The notes under the pieces were generated by a model. It did not search any database, was not told the DNA's origin, and saw only the letters and a program-made list of their open reading frames with translations. The translations under genes were made by a program, and so were the position numbers. A stretch of DNA of 40,419 bases from Candidatus Hydrothermarchaeota archaeon. Its GTDB lineage: Archaea; Hydrothermarchaeota; Hydrothermarchaeia; Hydrothermarchaeales; BMS3B. Below are positions 30,575 through 39,256 of the stretch, in pieces. Location: positions 1 through 40,419 of the forward strand of contig WANW01000053.1 of the NCBI GenBank assembly GCA_015521615.1. The letters run 5' to 3'. Position 1 is the first letter of the stretch, and each line of letters opens with the position of its first letter.

Positions 30575-30832
30575 ATGGAAGTTATTCTTAGGATTCCAGG
30601 GGATGTTGTAGAAAATCTTCGACTGCCACCTGAGAATATAGAAGAAGAATTAAAAAAAGAACTCGCAATTATATTATATCAGAGGGGCATCCTGTCATCT
30701 GCAAAAGCCTGCAAACTTGCTGGATTGACAAGGTGGGAATTCGAGGATCTTCTAGGAAAAAGAAAAATCAGGAGACATTATACGGAGAAGGACTTAGAGG
30801 AAGACATTGAGTATGCAGTCAGTGGTGTGTGA
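30575..30832 (+). CDS. UPF0175-family antitoxin
   Basis: An 85-residue protein with N-terminal MEVILRIPGDVVENLRLPPE, EELKKELAIILYQRGILSSAKACKLAGLTRWEFEDLLGKR, and an acidic end. This is the UPF0175 pattern: a helix-turn-helix-like antitoxin that pairs with a DUF3368 PIN-like toxin. The next gene overlaps its 3' end by 20 bases. Confidence 0.85.
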   Translation: MEVILRIPGDVVENLRLPPENIEEELKKELAIILYQRGILSSAKACKLAGLTRWEFEDLLGKRKIRRHYTEKDLEEDIEYAVSGV

Positions 30833-31310
30833 TTCCTCTGTGCTCATCCATCTGGCAAAAATAAAGAGACTCCACCTCCTCAAGGATTTTTACGGAAGCA
30901 TTGCAATAACGCCTGCTGTGTGGAGAGAAGTGGTTGAGGAGGGGAAAGATAGGGAGGATGTTAAACTAATTAAAAAAGCCTTTGATAACGGGTGGATAGC
31001 TGTGGATTCACCAGCTAACAAACCTCTTGTCAAAATTCTGGAGAGGCGCCTTCACCTAGGAGAAGCTGAAACAATCGCCCTGGCTGTGGAGAAGTCAGCT
31101 TTAGTTCTCCTAGATGAATCAGAAGGCAGGAGAGTTGCCGATGTTTATGGACTGAGGAAAACAGGGGTGGTAGGTATCCTACTCAAGGCTAAGCTGAAAG
31201 GAATAATACCTTCCCTTAAAAAAGAGCTGGACGCGCTGAGGTATAAAGCAGGGTTCTGGATAAGCGACGACCTCTATAGTAAAGCTCTGAAGTTTGCAGG
31301 AGAAGAATAG
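30813..31310 (+). CDS. DUF3368 PIN-like toxin
   Basis: A PIN-superfamily putative RNase of about 165 residues. Seen: VVCDSSVLIHLAKIKRL (first acidic residue), LHLGEAETIALAVEKSALVLLDESEGRRVADVYG (GEAET and the paired acids), and TGVVGILLKAKLKGIIPSLK, which are DUF3368 hallmarks. The ATG at 30813 (or TTG at 30807) lies within the antitoxin gene, so the two are translationally coupled like VapBC. Not obviously broken. Confidence 0.85.
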   Translation: MQSVVCDSSVLIHLAKIKRLHLLKDFYGSIAITPAVWREVVEEGKDREDVKLIKKAFDNGWIAVDSPANKPLVKILERRLHLGEAETIALAVEKSALVLLDESEGRRVADVYGLRKTGVVGILLKAKLKGIIPSLKKELDALRYKAGFWISDDLYSKALKFAGEE

Positions 31311-31339
31311 ACAAAACAGCTCAAAACATGCTCAAAAAA
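31311..31339 (-). terminator. U-rich terminator at the 3' end of the molybdoenzyme operon
   Basis: On the minus strand CTTTTTTGAGC-ATGTTTTGAGC-TGTTTTG gives three successive U tracts just at and after the cupin stop, partly as a repeated TTTTGAGC. This suits archaeal U-tract termination. Confidence 0.4.
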
Positions 31340-31676
31340 GCGGCGGGGCGTGGGTTGCGAGCAGAATCAGCTCCTCTTCGCCGGTATTCTCAATCCCATG
31401 CTCCTCTCCCGGCGGGACGAAGATATAGTCGCCCTCGCCTATGTCAACCCACTCCCCATTCACATAAGCTTTTCCCGTACCCTTTAAAATGTAGATGGAG
31501 TCCACCTCCTTCTCATGGAGGTGCACGCTGGCGGAGCTTCCAGGGGATATTTTCAGAATAGAGACGCTCACCTCAGAGTTTTTCTCGCTCGTTATGAGTT
31601 TTGCAATCTCTACTCCTGCGAACTTCGGATGAGGCTCAAACCTGATATCAGCACTTTTTATTAAAACACCCGCCAT
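31332..31676 (-). CDS. Small cupin-domain protein
   Basis: A single-domain cupin of about 114 residues. The metal-binding boxes are visible: PGSSASVHLHEKEVDSIYILKGTGKAYV (motif 1, with HLHEKE) and PPGEEHGIENTGEE (motif 2). It is the last gene of the molybdoenzyme operon. The ATG at 31676 lies three bases past the TorD-like gene's stop; a GTG at 31682 overlapping that stop is the alternative. Its role could be small-molecule binding or a redox-linked metal enzyme; this cannot be resolved. Confidence 0.8.
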   Translation of the reverse strand: MAGVLIKSADIRFEPHPKFAGVEIAKLITSEKNSEVSVSILKISPGSSASVHLHEKEVDSIYILKGTGKAYVNGEWVDIGEGDYIFVPPGEEHGIENTGEEELILLATHAPPLF

Positions 31677-31678
31677 GC

Positions 31679-32743
31679 TCACTCCGCCCTGAGGAAATAG
31701 GTGCTCTCCCCGGAGGTGTCCATCTTATCCACAGAGGCAAAGGCTGCACTGAGCTCCTCCTCGCTCAGATTGCTCGCAGCGTTCAGCATCTCCTCCACCT
31801 GCTTATACTCGTGCTCAAGGAAGAGCTTCGCAAGCTTTGCCATAGCTCTGTAAAAGTCCATCTCCACTATCTCTTCACTCTTATACTTCTCCACGTCGCG
31901 CACGTCACCATGGTACTTGAGCGCTATGCCCACTTTGAAATCATCATTCGCGACGTCGTCGAAGAGGTAGGGCAGCCAGAGGATCATGTGCTCATGAATG
32001 AACTTCTTCTGACGCTCCAGGGCGAGAAGTGCCTTTTCCCTGTCACCGGCTTTCCAGGCTTCTATCTCATCCTCCAGCAGGCGGAAGGCAAACTCCAGCT
32101 CGAGCTTGGCCTCATCGGGTGGCAGATTGCCACGTGACTTGTCCAGGATGTAGCCCGCCTCGCGGTACAGGTTCTTTACCTCAGCTGTCAAATCACCCAT
32201 TATCTGCTTCTCACTTCTATACACCGACTCGTGCCCCGAGATGTATGGCATAAGGTCGTCGTCAAAGATTGTAAAGCGCTCCGCCTCCAGTTCGCGCCTG
32301 AACTTCTTGGGCTTCATATCAGCAAAGGCGTTACGGAATCGCTCCAGAGCTAGAAAATGCTCCTCAAGCAGATTCTCGGGAATAAGCTTGCCCAGAGCAG
32401 AGCGGAGCTTTTCCATGTACTCCCCGCTCAGGACCTCCTCCGCCAGCGCTGGAGAAATCTCCGTAAAAGCACGAAAAATCTGGAAGTATGCATCCCGCCT
32501 GGCAGTGGCAAGTTCTGCATAACTCTTTGCGTCGTGAGGAGTTGCAGGAGTGCGCTGAATGTTTGGCTTTCTGTTCTCTATTAGAGCAATCCAGTGATCT
32601 TTATCCTTCACATTCATCGCATGGATCCAGAAAAGATAGTTATACTTCTTGAGCAGGTTCTTCCAGTCCTTTGCCAGCTCTGGGTCAAAGTACCACTTTA
32701 TGTAGTCATTCCTCTCAAATATATCCTTGGGCTCTCTCGGCAA
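31679..32743 (-). CDS. TorD/DmsD-family molybdoenzyme maturation chaperone (extended N terminus)
   Basis: The C-terminal two-thirds match the TorD-like fold: YISGHESVYRSEKQIMGD, LPPDEAKLELEFAFRLLEDEIEAW and a helix with KKFIHEHMILWLPYLFDD. These chaperones bind apo-molybdoenzymes and help insert the bis-MGD cofactor. At about 354 residues it is longer than the usual 200, with a helical N-terminal extension of unknown role. The tracked start is a GTG (32752) overlapping the Shine-Dalgarno sequence. The TTG at 32743, six bases after GAGGTG, is the likelier start. Confidence 0.78.
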   Translation of the reverse strand: MPREPKDIFERNDYIKWYFDPELAKDWKNLLKKYNYLFWIHAMNVKDKDHWIALIENRKPNIQRTPATPHDAKSYAELATARRDAYFQIFRAFTEISPALAEEVLSGEYMEKLRSALGKLIPENLLEEHFLALERFRNAFADMKPKKFRRELEAERFTIFDDDLMPYISGHESVYRSEKQIMGDLTAEVKNLYREAGYILDKSRGNLPPDEAKLELEFAFRLLEDEIEAWKAGDREKALLALERQKKFIHEHMILWLPYLFDDVANDDFKVGIALKYHGDVRDVEKYKSEEIVEMDFYRAMAKLAKLFLEHEYKQVEEMLNAASNLSEEELSAAFASVDKMDTSGESTYFLRAE

Positions 32744-32797
32744 GGTTAACACCTCTTCTCAAATTATAAACCAAAAACGAGGGAAAGGAAAACTGAA

Positions 32798-33634
32798 TCA
32801 GTGCCTCTCCTCTGGCGCCGGCTCCGGGAAGTCGTCGCCAGGTAATGCATAGTATACAGAGCCCACACGTATAATACGCCTGTTCTCCGCCTTCTTTTCA
32901 ATAACCTTCTTCACGTCCTTATAGTATCCGAAGGTCATAGCCTCTGTGGAACACTTGGTTGCGCAGGCGCTCCACAGACCCTCGTAGGTAATGCTCTCCA
33001 CACCACGACCAACTTCTGCAAGCTTCTTACCCGAAAGGGGCTCTCCCTTCTCATCTACAAGCCTGCCCTTGTTGTCCCGCTTTATGTTGCCAACCTCATC
33101 CGCCACGGGAAGGCGTACCTCTCCGCCATGCTTGTATGTATAGCGGTAGATCTTCTGAAGCTCTTCTTTAGTGTAGGTCCTGCGATAATCCACACGCTGC
33201 ATGCAGAAGTTGCATTTCACCACCCTACCAGTGCGAGAGTCATACTGAGGGGCACCATAGGGGCAAGCCTGCATGCAGCGCTTGCAGCCTATGCACGCTT
33301 CGCTGTCAACAAAGACAATACCATCCCTGGCACGCTTCTGCATGGCTCCAGTCGGGCACGCCTCAACACAGGGCGCGGGGTTGCAGTGATAGCACAGCAT
33401 AGGAATGTAGAGAGTCTTAACCCTGCCAAGCACCTTCCTTGGTCCAACCTGAATAACACGTATCAGGCGAGGACCCATGCTCAGGTCATGCTCCAGCTTG
33501 CAGGATGTTTCACAGGAAAAACAGCCTATACAGCGTTTTAAATCGATAAGCATAACAACAGTATTATCACTCGGCTCACGCTGATCAACCTCATACATAC
33601 TAAAAGCTTCATCAAACACCTCTACACTTGCCAT
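32798..33634 (-). CDS. Four-cluster ferredoxin subunit of molybdoenzyme (paralogue 1)
   Basis: An electron-transfer beta subunit of the DMSO-reductase superfamily. Four [4Fe-4S] motifs: CIGCFSCETSCK, CYHCNPAPCVEACP, CIGCKRCMQACP, and a last cluster split as CNFC ... CATKC with an insertion of roughly 60 residues (YTKEELQKIYRYTYKHGG onwards) not found in its paralogue. It has no signal or membrane segment and is thus cytoplasmic. Its ATG overlaps the stop of the small tail-like gene (TAATG), with GGAG just before. Confidence 0.9.
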   Translation of the reverse strand: MASVEVFDEAFSMYEVDQREPSDNTVVMLIDLKRCIGCFSCETSCKLEHDLSMGPRLIRVIQVGPRKVLGRVKTLYIPMLCYHCNPAPCVEACPTGAMQKRARDGIVFVDSEACIGCKRCMQACPYGAPQYDSRTGRVVKCNFCMQRVDYRRTYTKEELQKIYRYTYKHGGEVRLPVADEVGNIKRDNKGRLVDEKGEPLSGKKLAEVGRGVESITYEGLWSACATKCSTEAMTFGYYKDVKKVIEKKAENRRIIRVGSVYYALPGDDFPEPAPEERH

Positions 33635-33906
33635 TACTCCTTCCTCCTGGGTTTAAGCATGTCCTCAGGCAGAACATTGTGACGTTCTGGATAAGCTGAA
33701 GCAGGAGAGACCATTATCTCATCCTTATCTCCCCAGAAATAAGCATACACAGTCTCAAGAGCACGAATCTCCCTTACAGCAGTGAGACCATACTTCCAGT
33801 TAGGATTTTTTATAATGCTCTTTTTAATCACATCAGGAACAACACCCTCAAGGGCCTTCTTCTGAGCCTCATCAAGCTCTCCACGATAACCCTTCGTCTT
33901 TGCCAA
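33634..33906 (-). CDS. Small protein resembling the detached C-terminal tail of the ferredoxin paralogue
   Basis: A protein of about 90 residues without cysteines. Its end (YFWGDKDEIMVSPASAYPER, then a Lys/Arg tail) is similar to the C-terminal tail of the neighbouring second ferredoxin subunit (FFNDKADTDLLTSPAYAFPER). It therefore looks like the tail domain of an ancestral subunit made as a separate chain. The tracked ORF starts at 33936. The TTG at 33906 is favoured because AGGAGGA ends seven bases before it. It probably contributes to holding ferredoxin and catalytic subunits together. The similarity is by eye. Confidence 0.65.
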   Translation of the reverse strand: MAKTKGYRGELDEAQKKALEGVVPDVIKKSIIKNPNWKYGLTAVREIRALETVYAYFWGDKDEIMVSPASAYPERHNVLPEDMLKPRRKE

Positions 33907-33967
33907 TTCAGTATCCTCCTGTGAAAAGTAAACCAAAAATCAAAAATAAAAGGGCTTTGGAAAGCCC

Positions 33968-34753
33968 CTACTTCTGCTTCTTCAGGAACACTGGCTTTGT
34001 CACTTCGGTTACGCGCTCAGGCAGCTTGCCAGGCTTGAGGCGTATCCTGGGTATGAACAGTGCACGCTCCGGGAATGCATAGGCCGGCGAGGTCAGCAGG
34101 TCGGTGTCTGCCTTGTCATTGAAGAACACTCTCGCAAGGCGGATAGCATCCTTCTCGCGGAAGTATGTCATTATGTCCGCAGGGTTGCCTATGTACAGGC
34201 AGTGGGTGGAGCACTTGGTCACACAGGCCGGCTGCAGACCCTTGTCGATACGGTGCATGCAGTAGTCGCACTTTATTACCTTGCCGGTTCGAGAATCCCA
34301 CTGCGGCGCACCGAAGGGACAAGCCTGCATACAGCGCTTGCAGCCTATGCACTTCTCACTGTCCACAAAGACAATGCCGTCCTTGGCGCGCTTTGTCATT
34401 GCGCCTGTGGGGCAGGCTTCCACACACGCTGCATGGCCGCACATGAAGCAGTTCATGGGGATGTACATCGCCTTGGTATGGCGACCCACCTTCTTGGGCC
34501 CCACCTGGATGACACGCATCCTGCGCGGCCCCATGGGGTCGTCATGCTCCAGCTTGCACGCTGTTTCGCAGGCGAAGCAGCCTATGCAGCGCTTGAGGTC
34601 GACAAACATGGTAATGTGGTCTGGGGGGATGCCCCAGACGCTGGCAGCCTGTGCCTCGTAAAGACCAATCTTCCTGTTTCTCTCGAGACCCTGCCTGGCA
34701 GTCTCCTGGTCAACGTTGAGAAGGGGACCCTTATCGGAGAATACCTCATCCAT
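33968..34753 (-). CDS. Four-cluster ferredoxin subunit of molybdoenzyme (paralogue 2)
   Basis: A second beta-type subunit of about 261 residues. Four [4Fe-4S] motifs: CIGCFACETACK, CFMCGHAACVEACP, CIGCKRCMQACP and CDYCMHRIDKGLQPACVTKC (compact last cluster). It then carries the SPAYAFPERALFIPR tail. The tracked start (34795) lies inside the catalytic gene; the ATG at 34753 follows GAGGTGA with good spacing. It is closest in sequence to the other ferredoxin of the operon. It would relay electrons from the molybdopterin subunit, as no membrane anchor gene is present. Confidence 0.9.
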   Translation of the reverse strand: MDEVFSDKGPLLNVDQETARQGLERNRKIGLYEAQAASVWGIPPDHITMFVDLKRCIGCFACETACKLEHDDPMGPRRMRVIQVGPKKVGRHTKAMYIPMNCFMCGHAACVEACPTGAMTKRAKDGIVFVDSEKCIGCKRCMQACPFGAPQWDSRTGKVIKCDYCMHRIDKGLQPACVTKCSTHCLYIGNPADIMTYFREKDAIRLARVFFNDKADTDLLTSPAYAFPERALFIPRIRLKPGKLPERVTEVTKPVFLKKQK

Positions 34754-34763
34754 CTCAATCACC

Positions 34764-37259
34764 TCACTTGGTCTCCCACTTCTCACGCGGCACACCTACG
34801 TAGTAGATGCCGCTGCCCTTCTGGATGAACCTGGTGTAGGTACCCAGATTGACAGTGGGCTCCTTCTCCGGGTCAAGGTAATCCTTGGGTGTGCGCTTGA
34901 CCTTGGCAAGGAACTCCTTGGTCTTCTCCACTGCCTTGTCGGGATCGTCGCCCAGGCGGTACACGCGCACAAGGTTGCACTTGTACTGAGCCTGGGTGTA
35001 GAAGGGATCCTTCACAGTGTCGTCCACGAGCTCGTTGATGTTGCTGTACGGATAGAAGGGCTGATACTTGTCGAAGCCCTCGGGGCCCCAGACCTCGCCC
35101 TCGTCAACCATCTCGTTGACCCAGGCGGGGCCTATCACCTTACCGTAGTCGTTCTCGCACACAACAGTGTCACCATCGCGTATGCCAAGTGCCTTTGCAA
35201 GCTCTGTATGGATGTTTATGAACCTGTGAGGTTCAAGCTCAACCATCCACGGCCACCAGTGACCCATCTCGTGGAAGTGTGCCACGAGTCTGCCTGTGCA
35301 CAGGATGAGCGGGTACTTCTCCCACAGGTCGGGCCTGGCCACAGGAGCATTGCTGGGCTCGATGTGTATCGGCAGCGGATACCAGCCGATCTGCTCCAGA
35401 GCTCTGCTGTAAATCTCCACCTTGCCGCTTGGTGTCGGGAAGCGCTTGTCAGTGCCTGGGTAGTTCACACCCTCCTTGTACATTATCCACTGGGCACCGC
35501 GTATAGTCGCTTCGGGATCGGAGTACATCATGGCCTCGTCCTTTGTCTCAGCAGGCCACATCACACCGCCCTTCGGGGACATCTCGGGATCCATGAGCTC
35601 CACGGTTATGCCGGCGACAAAGCTCTCCTGAGCGTGGAACCAGTTCTGGCACACGCGCTCGTCAATCTCATGGGTTGTGCCCGGATACTTGGGATCCTCA
35701 GGCAAGGGGTTGCCGAACACGTCCTTCTTTGCCCACCAGCTCTTGCCATCAGGAGCATAGTAGGCCTCGGCGAACTCAAAGCGCTTCGCCAGGCCGGCCC
35801 AGAAGTCTATGTCGGCGCGGCACTCCCACTGGCGCTCTATAATCTGGTTGTGCCACTGCACGTGGCGGTTGTTGCCGTGGTGCACCACACCTTCGTGCTC
35901 AAAGAAGCTGGTTATTGGAAACGCCGCGTGCATCCAGCTCATGGTCTCGTTGGGGTGGAAGCTCAGGTGCACACCGCAGTACAGGTTCTTCATGTACTCT
36001 CTTACCTTGTTGTTGTTCGGCCACTGCACTATGTGGTTTCCATTCCAGATGAGACCCTTGACAGGGTAGGGCTTGCCGGTGTAGCCGGGGTTGATTGTGC
36101 ACGCGCTTGATGTGTCACCCCAGGGTATAATCTTGTCAGCAAGCTGCGGCTCCTTTATCTTCGCCACATACTCCTTCAGGTCCTTGCCGGCGCTGAGCAC
36201 AGGGCGGCAGTTGTGGAGCCAGTTCCAGCCTCCTCCCTTAACGCCCACGTTACCGGTTATAGCTACGAGTATCTGGTAGGCGGCATTGCCATTACCGGCG
36301 TTGTACTGCTGCGCAGTACCTAAGCAGCCTGTGAAGTGGGTCCTCCTGGGATAGGCAATCCACTCAGCAGCCTTGCGTATGTCCTCCGCAGGAACCCAGG
36401 TGATGTTCTCAGCCTTCTCTGGTGTATAGTCCTTAACCAGCTCCTTGTACTTCTCAAAGCCCACCGTCCAGCGAGCTATAAAGTCCTTGTCAATTCCGTC
36501 AATCTCATAGATAAGCACGTGGGCAAGCGCATTCGCCAGGTAGCAGTCGGTGGTCGGGCGCAGGCGCAGTGCAAGGTCCGCCTTAGCCATGGTGGCATTG
36601 AAGCGCGGGTCTATGACTATCATCTTGGCACCATTGCGGTCCTGCGCCTCGATGAACCACTTCATGGTTATTACTTCCAGTGCCGCGGCATTGGCACCGG
36701 AGATGAATATGGTATCGCTGTTCATCGCGTCCTGGCAGGGGTTCATCAAGCGAAGGAACTCCTTGGCACCAAATACGTACTGACCCCTCGCTCCAGGCGA
36801 CTCACAGCAAAGCGGCCCCTGGCCGTAGATGTTCGGAGTACCGTACATCGCCAGGAATCTTGAGCCGCCCAGCTTGTTACCGTAGCTGCTTCTTCCAGTG
36901 CGGTGACACGCTACGGTATGGGCACCCCACTTCTCACGGATGTACTTAAGGCGGTCTGCGACGAAGTCAAGAGCTTCGTCCCAGGTGACGCGCCTGAACT
37001 TTCCGTTTACATTGTCCTCTCTAATAACAGGATACTTGGCGCGCAGGGGGTTATATGCATGCTGGTAGTTCGCAGTACCTTTGGGGCAAAGGGAGCCGTA
37101 GTTCTGCGGATGCTCGTCGTCACCCCAGATATCGACTATTCTGCCATCCTTGAGGTACACCTTCAACCCGCAACCGCTTTCGCACATGTTGTCGCAGGTG
37201 GTGTACCTGATGGTATCGTAGTCCTTTACGGACTCCGACACTCTCCTCAATACTACCAC
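34764..37259 (-). CDS. Molybdopterin (bis-MGD) oxidoreductase catalytic subunit
   Basis: An 831-residue member of the DMSO-reductase superfamily. The N-terminal [4Fe-4S] site is TTCDNMCESGCG with GSLCPKG. Further cofactor-domain signatures are VTWDEALDFVADRLK, MNSDTIFISGANAA, IVIDPRFNATMAKADLALRLRPTTD and C-terminal FPTPSGKVEIYS. The likely metal ligand is a Cys in GPLCCESPGARG. No Tat signal is present, so the enzyme is cytoplasmic. The substrate cannot be named: sulfur, nitrogen, arsenic oxyanion or formate enzymes share this plan, and Mo versus W is open. The GTG start follows GGAGGTGA by five bases. It heads a six-gene operon and is divergent from cofactor genes mobA-moeA. Confidence 0.93.
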   Translation of the reverse strand: MVVLRRVSESVKDYDTIRYTTCDNMCESGCGLKVYLKDGRIVDIWGDDEHPQNYGSLCPKGTANYQHAYNPLRAKYPVIREDNVNGKFRRVTWDEALDFVADRLKYIREKWGAHTVACHRTGRSSYGNKLGGSRFLAMYGTPNIYGQGPLCCESPGARGQYVFGAKEFLRLMNPCQDAMNSDTIFISGANAAALEVITMKWFIEAQDRNGAKMIVIDPRFNATMAKADLALRLRPTTDCYLANALAHVLIYEIDGIDKDFIARWTVGFEKYKELVKDYTPEKAENITWVPAEDIRKAAEWIAYPRRTHFTGCLGTAQQYNAGNGNAAYQILVAITGNVGVKGGGWNWLHNCRPVLSAGKDLKEYVAKIKEPQLADKIIPWGDTSSACTINPGYTGKPYPVKGLIWNGNHIVQWPNNNKVREYMKNLYCGVHLSFHPNETMSWMHAAFPITSFFEHEGVVHHGNNRHVQWHNQIIERQWECRADIDFWAGLAKRFEFAEAYYAPDGKSWWAKKDVFGNPLPEDPKYPGTTHEIDERVCQNWFHAQESFVAGITVELMDPEMSPKGGVMWPAETKDEAMMYSDPEATIRGAQWIMYKEGVNYPGTDKRFPTPSGKVEIYSRALEQIGWYPLPIHIEPSNAPVARPDLWEKYPLILCTGRLVAHFHEMGHWWPWMVELEPHRFINIHTELAKALGIRDGDTVVCENDYGKVIGPAWVNEMVDEGEVWGPEGFDKYQPFYPYSNINELVDDTVKDPFYTQAQYKCNLVRVYRLGDDPDKAVEKTKEFLAKVKRTPKDYLDPEKEPTVNLGTYTRFIQKGSGIYYVGVPREKWETK

Positions 37260-37294
37260 TTTTTCACCTCCAACCTTTCCGTTGTTACCATACT

Positions 37295-37322
37295 GCGTGG
37301 GCTTGTAAAAACTACCCCACGC
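37295..37322 (-). promoter_or_regulatory. Inverted repeat in the molybdoenzyme leader
   Basis: GCGTGGG (37295-37301) and CCCACGC (37316-37322) are perfect 7-bp arms 21 bp apart start to start. They lie within the predicted 5' leader of the catalytic-subunit mRNA, between the TATA near 37360 and the ribosome site. It could be a two-turn operator or an RNA stem with a loop of about 14 nt. Confidence 0.45.
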
Positions 37323-37356
37323 GACTTCGCTGTAACCTTTTAATCATTAATACTTC

Positions 37357-37366
37357 ACCCTATATA
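37357..37366. promoter_or_regulatory. Shared divergent TATA, molybdoenzyme operon / mobA
   Basis: CCTATATATACTTTTTT contains a near-symmetric TATATATA. It stands about 30 bp before mobA on the plus strand and about 100 bp before the catalytic-subunit GTG on the minus strand, so it may drive both. Confidence 0.45.
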
Positions 37367-37394
37367 TACTTTTTTATCCGGGGCGAAATTGGGC

Positions 37395-38018
37395 ATGGAG
37401 ATGCACAACCGTTGTAAAAAAATGCAGTGCACCGCGGTTATAATCGCCGGCGGGCAGAGCAGAAGAATGGGGATAGATAAGAGATTTTTAACAATTGGAG
37501 AAGAGAGCTTTATTGAACGCATGCTAAGGCTAGCATCAAGCTTTGCTAGAGAAGTTATTGTTTCCCTGGCAACTGAAGAGCAGGCGTCGAAGTTAGGCAC
37601 CGGTGATAATTTTAAGGTGGTGCTGGATGAAAATCCGGGAAAAGGTCCTGCTTATGCCCTGACCACAGCCGCAAAGCATGCAAGCTATGAGTACATCGCT
37701 GTAATGCCCGTTGATTCTCCTCTGCTGGAACCTGAATTATACTACCTACTTATGCGAGAGGTCCGGGGTTACGACGCGGCAGTACCTGTGGTCAGAGGCT
37801 TTGCCGAGCCCCTGCATGCAGTTTATTCTACAAGTGCACTCCTGTCAAAGGCACAAGCAGGGTCGAAGAGCATGATGGCACTTCTAACCCTGCTCAACGT
37901 TAATTTTGTACCCGAGGAAAAGCTCAGCAGTGCCGGTATAGAGATGTTGAGCTTCCTTAATGTTAACACGCCTGAGGAATACAAAAAACTTAGAGAAAAG
38001 GTGAAAAAATGCAGGTGA
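37395..38018 (+). CDS. mobA: Molybdenum cofactor guanylyltransferase
   Basis: Attaches GMP from GTP to molybdopterin to make the guanine dinucleotide form used by DMSO-reductase-type enzymes. Seen: the nucleotide loop AVIIAGGQSRRMGIDKRFL, ENPGKGPAYALTTA, the metal Asp in IAVMPVDSPLLEPEL, and AVPVVRGFAEPLHAVYS. The start is uncertain: ATG 37395 fits a leaderless mRNA from the TATA, while ATGs at 37401 and 37422 are alternatives. Its end overlaps moeA by ten bases. Confidence 0.9.
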   Translation: MEMHNRCKKMQCTAVIIAGGQSRRMGIDKRFLTIGEESFIERMLRLASSFAREVIVSLATEEQASKLGTGDNFKVVLDENPGKGPAYALTTAAKHASYEYIAVMPVDSPLLEPELYYLLMREVRGYDAAVPVVRGFAEPLHAVYSTSALLSKAQAGSKSMMALLTLLNVNFVPEEKLSSAGIEMLSFLNVNTPEEYKKLREKVKKCR

Positions 38019-39256
38019 GAGGCAAGGGCTTTTACAGCCTGACATCAGTTAGCGAAGCACTGAAGAAGCTACTTTCAGATATTCGCGTACTGGATGAGGA
38101 GGAAATTCTCCTCGAAGATGCGACTGGCAGGGTGCTCGCCAGTGATATTGTTGCAGAGAGGGACAATCCCCCCTTCGATCGTGCTGCAATGGATGGATTC
38201 GCCGTCCGTGGGGAGGACACCTTCGGCGCAAGTCAGGCAAACCCCATATATTTTAGAATAATAGGAGAGGTGCTTACTGGGCAGAACTTCGATGGCGAGG
38301 TTCGTGAGTATGAGGCTGTGCGAATAACCACCGGTGCACCTTTGCCTAGAGGCGCAGATGCCGTGGTGATGCTGGAGCATGTAAATGAGCTTGGAGATGA
38401 GATCGAAGTCGTTAAAGCAGCACCACCTGGAAAAAATGTTTCACTGCGCGGGGAGGATTATAAGAAGGGTGAGACGCTGCTAAAGCGCGGTCGTATGCTG
38501 AACCCCCAGGAAATAGCCATACTTGCCTCTCTCGGATTGCGCAGGGTCAGGGTCTTCCGGAGACCCAGAGTCGGGATAATTTCAACCGGAGATGAAATTA
38601 AAGAGCCTGGTGAGGAGCTGAAAGAGGGGCAGATTTACGACATTAACAGCTTTGCCCTGGCTGCGTTGTGCAGCACAACAGGCGCAATTCCAAAACGCCT
38701 GGGAGTTGTGAAGGACGAGTACAAAGCGATGAGACATGCAATAGAGGCAGGATTGGACAATGACGTCCTGCTGATAAGCGGCGCCACCTCTGTGGGCAAG
38801 CGGGATGTGGTGCCTGAGATAGTACGTGAACTCGGCAAAGTTTTGGTGCACGGCATAGCGATGCGCCCCGGCGAGCCCACAGGCTTTGGTTATATAGGAG
38901 ACACCCTTGTGTTCATGCTACCCGGTTACCCGGTTGCAAGCATAGTCGCCTTTGAAACTTTCGTCCGCCCTGCGCTGCAGGCTATGCAGGGACTTAAGCC
39001 AGAGATGCCCTATCCTGCGATTCGTGCAAGGCTGCGCAGAAAGATACCCTCTGAACTGGGGAGACGCGACTTTGTTCGCGTTCGTGTTGAGAGGTCAGAA
39101 GAGGGCTATGAGGTTGAACCCATAAGAACCTCTGGCTCCGGGATTGTTTCCAGCCTTGTTCGTGGGGATGGGTTTGTAATTGTGCCAGAGAATACGGAGG
39201 GCATAGAGAAGGGCGAGGTGGTAGAGGTTAGGCTTTTCAGAAGTCTGGAGAGGTAG
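38009..39256 (+). CDS. moeA: Molybdopterin molybdenumtransferase (or W homologue)
   Basis: Inserts molybdate or tungstate into adenylylated molybdopterin. Seen: ASDIVAERDNPPFDRAAMDGFAVR, the ITTGAPLPRGADAVVMLEHV box, VGIISTGDEIKEPGE, SGATSVGKRDVVPE, and MRPGEPTGFGYIGDTLVFMLPGYPVASIVAFE. The 415 residues give the normal domains I-IV without a fused PBP domain. It lies directly after mobA and beside a molybdoenzyme, so a dedicated cofactor supply is plausible. Confidence 0.95.
   Translation: MQVRGKGFYSLTSVSEALKKLLSDIRVLDEEEILLEDATGRVLASDIVAERDNPPFDRAAMDGFAVRGEDTFGASQANPIYFRIIGEVLTGQNFDGEVREYEAVRITTGAPLPRGADAVVMLEHVNELGDEIEVVKAAPPGKNVSLRGEDYKKGETLLKRGRMLNPQEIAILASLGLRRVRVFRRPRVGIISTGDEIKEPGEELKEGQIYDINSFALAALCSTTGAIPKRLGVVKDEYKAMRHAIEAGLDNDVLLISGATSVGKRDVVPEIVRELGKVLVHGIAMRPGEPTGFGYIGDTLVFMLPGYPVASIVAFETFVRPALQAMQGLKPEMPYPAIRARLRRKIPSELGRRDFVRVRVERSEEGYEVEPIRTSGSGIVSSLVRGDGFVIVPENTEGIEKGEVVEVRLFRSLER

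Follow-up and report, generated by a model that had tools for sequence, protein, structure and literature searches.

A soluble molybdoenzyme operon of Hydrothermarchaeota with one whole and one putatively split iron-sulfur subunit

Two iron-sulfur subunits within one molybdoenzyme operon are known from the arx operon arxB2ABCD of the anaerobic arsenite oxidase (PMC6549141), and passages of Wells et al. (2023; PMC10100899) describe unnamed, cysteine-ligated lineages of the dimethyl sulfoxide (DMSO) reductase (MopB) superfamily in a basal position relative to the chalcophile, Asp- and Ser-ligated groups. The present analysis concerns an operon in a stretch of 40,419 nucleotides from Candidatus Hydrothermarchaeota archaeon (assembly GCA_015521615.1, contig WANW01000053.1, positions 1 to 40,419; hereafter the window), which encodes a catalytic subunit of this superfamily (A), two ferredoxin-type subunits (B1 and B2), a small protein between them (sm; order A-B1-sm-B2) and a TorD-like chaperone (Table 1). 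The Hydrothermarchaeota, a little-known phylum of the hot seafloor, have no cultured members, and how they gain energy has been guessed from annotation. Passages of three papers on the phylum list genes of nitrate reductase, formate dehydrogenase or tetrathionate reductase (PMC6775978, PMC6759336, PMC6946796); a description of the A-B1-sm-B2 operon was not found in these passages. No characterised enzyme with this composition was found, and the system represents, judged by its sequences, a known superfamily in a new lineage whose subunit composition is also new. The reading favoured here, with moderate confidence, is that the encoded enzyme is a cytoplasmic, soluble molybdenum oxidoreductase from a superfamily clade of its own and that B1 and B2/sm would occupy equivalent docking positions and not form one long wire.

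The Molybdop_Fe4S4, Molybdopterin and Molydop_binding Pfam domains of A all scored above their cut-offs; from the fold, the cysteine in ligand position and the linked molybdenum cofactor (Moco) genes, we infer that A binds Mo/W-bis(pyranopterin guanine dinucleotide). Neither a transmembrane segment nor a twin-arginine translocation (Tat) signal was detected in A (the Arg-Arg pair close to the N-terminus lacks conservation and is not followed by a hydrophobic stretch), and no transmembrane protein or membrane anchor was found to be encoded in the Hydrothermarchaeota operon, in agreement with the cytoplasmic, anchor-free enzyme of the initial annotation. In the phylogenetic analysis proposed there (46 sequences, LG+C20), A fell inside no characterised enzyme: Together with its bacterial relatives and a paralogue of 40% identity it formed one clade (100/99 support). 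A 100/99 branch divides this clade from FdhF, FdnG, FDH3, NapA and AioA, and the clade stands next to DmsA/NarG, PsrA/PhsA/ArrA/ArxA and an unnamed Nostoc/Streptomyces group without being nested in any of them. According to this tree, A is outside the formate dehydrogenase side and every other reference family tested; the references did not comprise acetylene hydratase, and the separateness of the clade holds relative to the families included. Respiratory nitrate reductase was rejected as the identity of A, NarG being Asp-ligated and distant in the tree. The 40% paralogue, present with its own B subunit in genus g3 (L048:283-4689, L049:7169-11938), adjoins fwdB-like and fwdD-like genes and is accompanied by a moaA-like and two moeA genes. 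The unnamed Nostoc/Streptomyces group, placed in this half of the tree as well, comprises single-subunit molybdopterin enzymes from a Streptomyces plasmid (L091:3791-6316, within an arsenic gene cluster) and a Nostoc plasmid (L083:3806-6322).

In the alignment to Escherichia coli FdhF, Sec140 corresponds to C151 of A; cysteine was found in this metal-ligand position throughout the A clade, and not the ligand of the Ser/Asp-ligated group (DmsA, TorA, NarG, PcrA, EbdA). The catalytic His141 of FdhF is matched by C152 of A (Thr or Gly in some clade members) and the catalytic Arg333 by H349, which is invariant in the clade; both FdhF residues are replaced in all 21 aligned clade members. An invariant His-His pair of A is located at 460-461. 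In one metagenome-assembled genome (MAG; G007, L042:4300-6796), the reading frame of A is interrupted around codon 147-151, next to the codon of the metal ligand, giving two frames; this reflects either a sequencing error or a real break.

The 16 cluster cysteines are invariant in all 28 iron-sulfur subunits compared (9 B1, 9 B2 and 10 bacterial B), bearing out two genuine paralogous beta subunits with eight clusters, or nine including that of A. B1 and B2 formed one clade each (both 100/99) and were sisters (93/83) next to the single bacterial B; their duplication was most likely confined to the phylum and located at the base of Hydrothermarchaeota. ArxB2 was rejected by the tree as a homologue of B2. 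The small protein sm contains no cysteine and is homologous to the C-terminal tail of B1 (hhalign probability 97.9%, E 5e-13), as its initial description as tail-like had implied. Its profile matched both sm and the B1 tail in the 16 Hydrothermarchaeota genomes having sm, which served as positive control for the 15 bacterial genomes with A, where no match was obtained. A TxxR[E/Q/D]xxA-like motif directly behind the ferredoxin core is common to bacterial B, B1 and sm, its arginine being lost in B2. Since sm is a copy of the B1 tail and carries the motif that is lost from B2, the pair of B2 and sm resembles a B1 divided in two; in the simplest reading of these comparisons, sm would supply B2 in trans with the tail that B1 has in cis. 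The split-tail beta subunit would thereby represent a concrete case of duplication and division of an electron-transfer subunit.

Relatives of A at about 46-55% identity were found in Sulfobacillus and other Bacillota, Nitrospirota, Chloroflexota and a single-cell genome labelled Altiarchaeales; A is rare in these groups (9/198 Nitrospirota, 1/301 Chloroflexota, 1/29 in the phylum of the single-cell genome). The two A copies of the latter (Candidatus Altiarchaeales WOR_SM1_SCG; L081, L115) group with the bacterial sequences, as a result of contamination or transfer. Where the contig reaches, the gene order in Nitrospirota and the single-cell genome is mostly A, B, small protein, TorD, CooF-like ferredoxin and FAD/NAD(P) oxidoreductase, some operons also encoding a VWA protein. 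In Bacillota, the gene of the small protein is separated from the ferredoxin/FAD genes by Moco genes, and TorD was not observed. Qmo/Hdr-like genes are located near A in some Nitrospirota, and a membrane anchor was seen in none of the bacterial A operons. The bacterial form is A with a single B, and its CooF-like ferredoxin and FAD module is not present in the Hydrothermarchaeota operon. The content of the bacterial operons suggests NAD(P)-linked electron flow.

Based on these comparisons, the cofactor would be made and loaded by the mobA/moeA products and TorD, the substrate would react at the metal, and electrons would pass via the cluster of A to a B subunit and from there to a soluble carrier; in the bacteria, the same core may exchange electrons with NAD(P) (to or from) via the CooF-like ferredoxin and the FAD protein. 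The initial annotation had left open whether the eight ferredoxin clusters form a long relay or serve two alternative partners. The tail data favour a split second B1: If B2 and sm are its two-piece counterpart, B1 and B2/sm probably dock equivalently, either in two A-beta units or as two alternative outlets, and not as one long wire. A serial relay, in which A docks B1 only and the sm-held B2 docks on B1 in place of the bacterial CooF-like ferredoxin, is possible though rather unlikely; nine clusters would then form a single soluble route leading to ferredoxin or to a flavoprotein of the Hdr type. The serial relay would agree with the conserved B1-sm-B2 order and with the second (CooF-like) ferredoxin behind TorD in bacterial operons, which has no counterpart in the Hydrothermarchaeota operon, as well as with the loss in B2 of 7-10 positions, tail motif included, that are kept by bacterial B and B1 (versus 4-5 the other way). 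However, the cores of B1 and B2 are about equally close to bacterial B, B2 has kept most of the positions conserved there, and with a B2 docking at an unrelated surface, a copy of the B1 tail in the form of sm would be superfluous. Several points weigh against equivalent docking in a molybdenum enzyme: The positions lost by B2 would also fit docking elsewhere, as in the serial relay; the sister relationship of B1 and B2 is supported at 93/83 only; the structure prediction of sm (mostly helix) is of low confidence and weaker than the A model, which itself (pLDDT 75) is of low reliability near the active site; and the metal may possibly be tungsten instead of molybdenum.

As in the initial annotation, no substrate is assigned to A. 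That A might be a sequence-drifted formate dehydrogenase or CO2 reductase appears very improbable. Its best curated model was indeed TIGR01591 Fdh-alpha, its closest solved relatives by profile were formate dehydrogenases, the bacterial context is NAD(P)-linked and the 40% paralogue stands beside fwdB-like and fwdD-like genes; however, no NCBIfam model exceeded its cut-off (TIGR01591: 297 bits, far under the required 666), the 100/99 branch keeps the clade apart from the formate dehydrogenases, and the replacement of the catalytic His and Arg in every clade member renders a formate dehydrogenase mechanism unlikely. Acetylene hydratase works without an electron-transfer subunit, whereas the conserved multi-cluster partners of A and the NAD(P)-linked module of the bacteria imply redox chemistry; a non-redox or hydroxylating relative of acetylene hydratase is, in consequence, improbable as well, even though, of the solved proteins, acetylene hydratase matched the C-terminal domain of A best (E 1.7e-13) and, according to PMC10100899, acetylene hydratase-like and unnamed Cys-ligated lineages have a near-basal position within this superfamily half in published trees. 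That A acts on oxyanions of sulfur, arsenic or selenium, as a soluble relative of the polysulfide, thiosulfate and arsenate reductases, is unlikely without being far-fetched: In the tree, the A clade shares its half with PsrA/PhsA/ArrA/ArxA and DmsA/NarG, the hosts include sulfur-cycle lineages, and Qmo/Hdr-like genes are located close to A in some Nitrospirota; however, A is not nested in the polysulfide/arsenate reductase and Arx clade and has neither Tat signal nor anchor. Co-occurrence with dsrA was not significant in either phylum (genomes with versus without A: Nitrospirota 5/9 vs 82/189, p=0.51; Hydrothermarchaeota 11/15 vs 3/8, p=0.18), leaving the tree neighbourhood and the nearby bacterial Qmo/Hdr-like genes as what points to a role in sulfur metabolism. 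In the fold search, the A model matched many members of the superfamily; the nearest folds were scattered over periplasmic nitrate reductase, formate dehydrogenase, acetylene hydratase and polysulfide reductase (19-24% identity) and indicated no single family. Tentatively, A may found a new enzyme family of the superfamily, with a His-rich active site and an obligate small partner, which in Hydrothermarchaeota would work as a soluble complex with a whole and a split beta subunit and two electron outlets and would catalyse a central, hitherto unrecognised reaction of these archaea.

The A orthologues of Candidatus Pyrohabitans JdFR-16 and JdFR-17 and of other Hydrothermarchaeota MAGs are 99-100% identical to A of the window, which agrees with an origin of the window from a Candidatus Pyrohabitans-like genome of this phylum. 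Compared with four congeners, the A protein is 99.3-99.5% identical with four-fold degenerate sites differing at 0.30-0.32, as against 97.8% at 0.37 for the nearby thermosome and 61-80% for mobA; across the phylum, identity amounts to 76-80% or more. These values indicate that A is under strong purifying selection. Given its conservation within the genus (99%) and the phylum (about 77%), A probably catalyses a main, central reaction of these cells. The silent divergence of A (34764-37259) and B1 (33968-34753) is nearly equal to all four congeners, and B2, TorD, mobA and moeA are more diverged at silent sites in two of the four; the evenness of the A-B1 segment could result from high expression or from a recent exchange of this segment.

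Beyond the operon of the initial annotation, a partner candidate that had not been recognised before is encoded elsewhere in the genome: a conserved small protein (77-122 aa) that belongs to no Pfam or NCBIfam family and to no convincing PDB family and is not related to sm. In Nitrospirota, it is present in 9/9 genomes with A and 0/189 without (Fisher p 9e-16, a value that ignores shared ancestry); in Hydrothermarchaeota, it occurs in 14/16 genomes with A or sm versus 1/7 without (p=0.006 against A alone, 0.0017 with sm added as second marker). It is mostly unlinked to A in Hydrothermarchaeota, standing beside a Tfx-like HTH regulator in several genomes; the copy in the window's genome (~120 aa; G000:C7:2311-2676, i.e. 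L147:2311-2676) is likewise unlinked to the operon, and another is found at L045:481-822. The unlinked protein is probably a subunit or a maturation factor.

The six minus-strand genes and the divergent mobA-moeA pair of the initial annotation were recovered with corrected starts for B1 and sm. B1 most likely starts at 34753, as in its orthologues, and not at 34795, so that it does not overlap with A; the most likely start of sm is the TTG at 33906, which AGGAGG precedes at a distance of eight bases, in agreement with the sm profile match. The order A-B1-sm-B2 was identical in every complete Hydrothermarchaeota locus examined, with TorD next in nearly all; as they are kept in the same order across the phylum, these are conserved genes and not chance open reading frames (ORFs). 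The TorD-like protein scored 63 bits with PF02613 (TorD/NarJ family; cut-off 22), and its extended form was confirmed. The cupin gene, being confined to the window's genus, was rejected as a core part. The genome encodes five Molybdopterin-domain proteins including A, three of the others resembling, by profile, a NapA-type, a formate dehydrogenase-type and a PhsA/ArrA-type enzyme. A MOT1-type molybdate transporter is located near A in L046 (by Pfam) and in L069, L070 and L075 (by sequence resemblance only). In three Hydrothermarchaeota loci, a B12-binding radical-SAM protein is encoded downstream of TorD (L043:6430-8505, L044:15105-17237, L045:1544-3805). In the window, an ORF resembling a PIN-domain protein occupies 30807-31310 (operon-adjacent also in one congener, L039), and a phage-type integrase gene lies at the edge (107-1330).

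Table 1. Features of the operon and its divergent neighbours (window coordinates).
Feature	Position	Strand	Basis or remark
A, catalytic subunit, 831 aa, DMSO-reductase (MopB) superfamily	34764..37259	(-)	domains, tree, alignment
N-terminal [4Fe-4S] motif of A: C22, C26, C30, C58 (codons 22-58)	37086..37196	(-)	
C151 codon of A, metal-ligand position (FdhF Sec/Cys140)	36807..36809	(-)	alignment; invariant in clade
B1, 261 aa, four [4Fe-4S] clusters and C-terminal tail	33968..34753	(-)	likely start is M15 of longer ORF
sm-homologous C-terminal tail of B1	34031..34171	(-)	profile comparison
sm, ~90 aa, cysteine-free, B1-tail homologue with TxxRExxA	33634..33906	(-)	
B2, 278 aa, B1 paralogue, four [4Fe-4S] clusters, without B1-type tail	32798..33634	(-)	
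B2-specific insertion, roughly 70 aa, between two cysteine pairs of last cluster motif	32981..33196	(-)	
TorD-like chaperone, 357 aa, extended N-terminus	31679..32752	(-)	PF02613 at residues 140-263
Cupin_2 protein, 116 aa, accessory, window's genus only	31332..31682	(-)	
A/mobA divergent intergenic region, 129 bp	37260..37388	none	
mobA-like NTP transferase (cofactor nucleotide attachment)	37389..38018	(+)	
moeA (molybdenum insertion)	38009..39256	(+)	

Among the known systems, the unnamed lineages of Wells et al. resemble A in their cysteine at the ligand position and in having their best hits spread over acetylene hydratase-, PsrA- and DmsA-like proteins; in the passages of PMC10100899, neither operon, subunits nor function are given for them and Hydrothermarchaeota are not named. 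The cytoplasmic formate dehydrogenases (FdhF, HDCR FdhF, F420-dependent FdhA) share with A the soluble nature, the Cys/Sec ligand, one N-terminal cluster and ferredoxin-type partners and are closest to it by profile score, yet they form a separate clade, and their catalytic His/Arg are replaced in A. Acetylene hydratase is likewise cytoplasmic and Cys-ligated and is the best C-terminal domain match; however, it is a single-subunit, non-redox enzyme, whereas A is always accompanied by cluster subunits where the contig reaches. PsrABC/PhsABC resemble the present system in the combination of A with a four-cluster B, in the Cys ligand and in the tree half, but they are exported and membrane-anchored with one B, and A is not nested in their clade. 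The arrangement of two ferredoxins, initially regarded as unusual, is so in that no characterised enzyme with A-B1-sm-B2 was found, whereas arxB2ABCD is a precedent for two iron-sulfur subunits as such: The arx loci, as also seen here, combine a catalytic subunit and two iron-sulfur subunits with a TorD-like protein. In contrast to A, however, ArxA is Tat-exported, belongs to another clade and is accompanied by an NrfD anchor, and ArxB2 is a ferredoxin of another type that is sister of neither ArxB nor B2.

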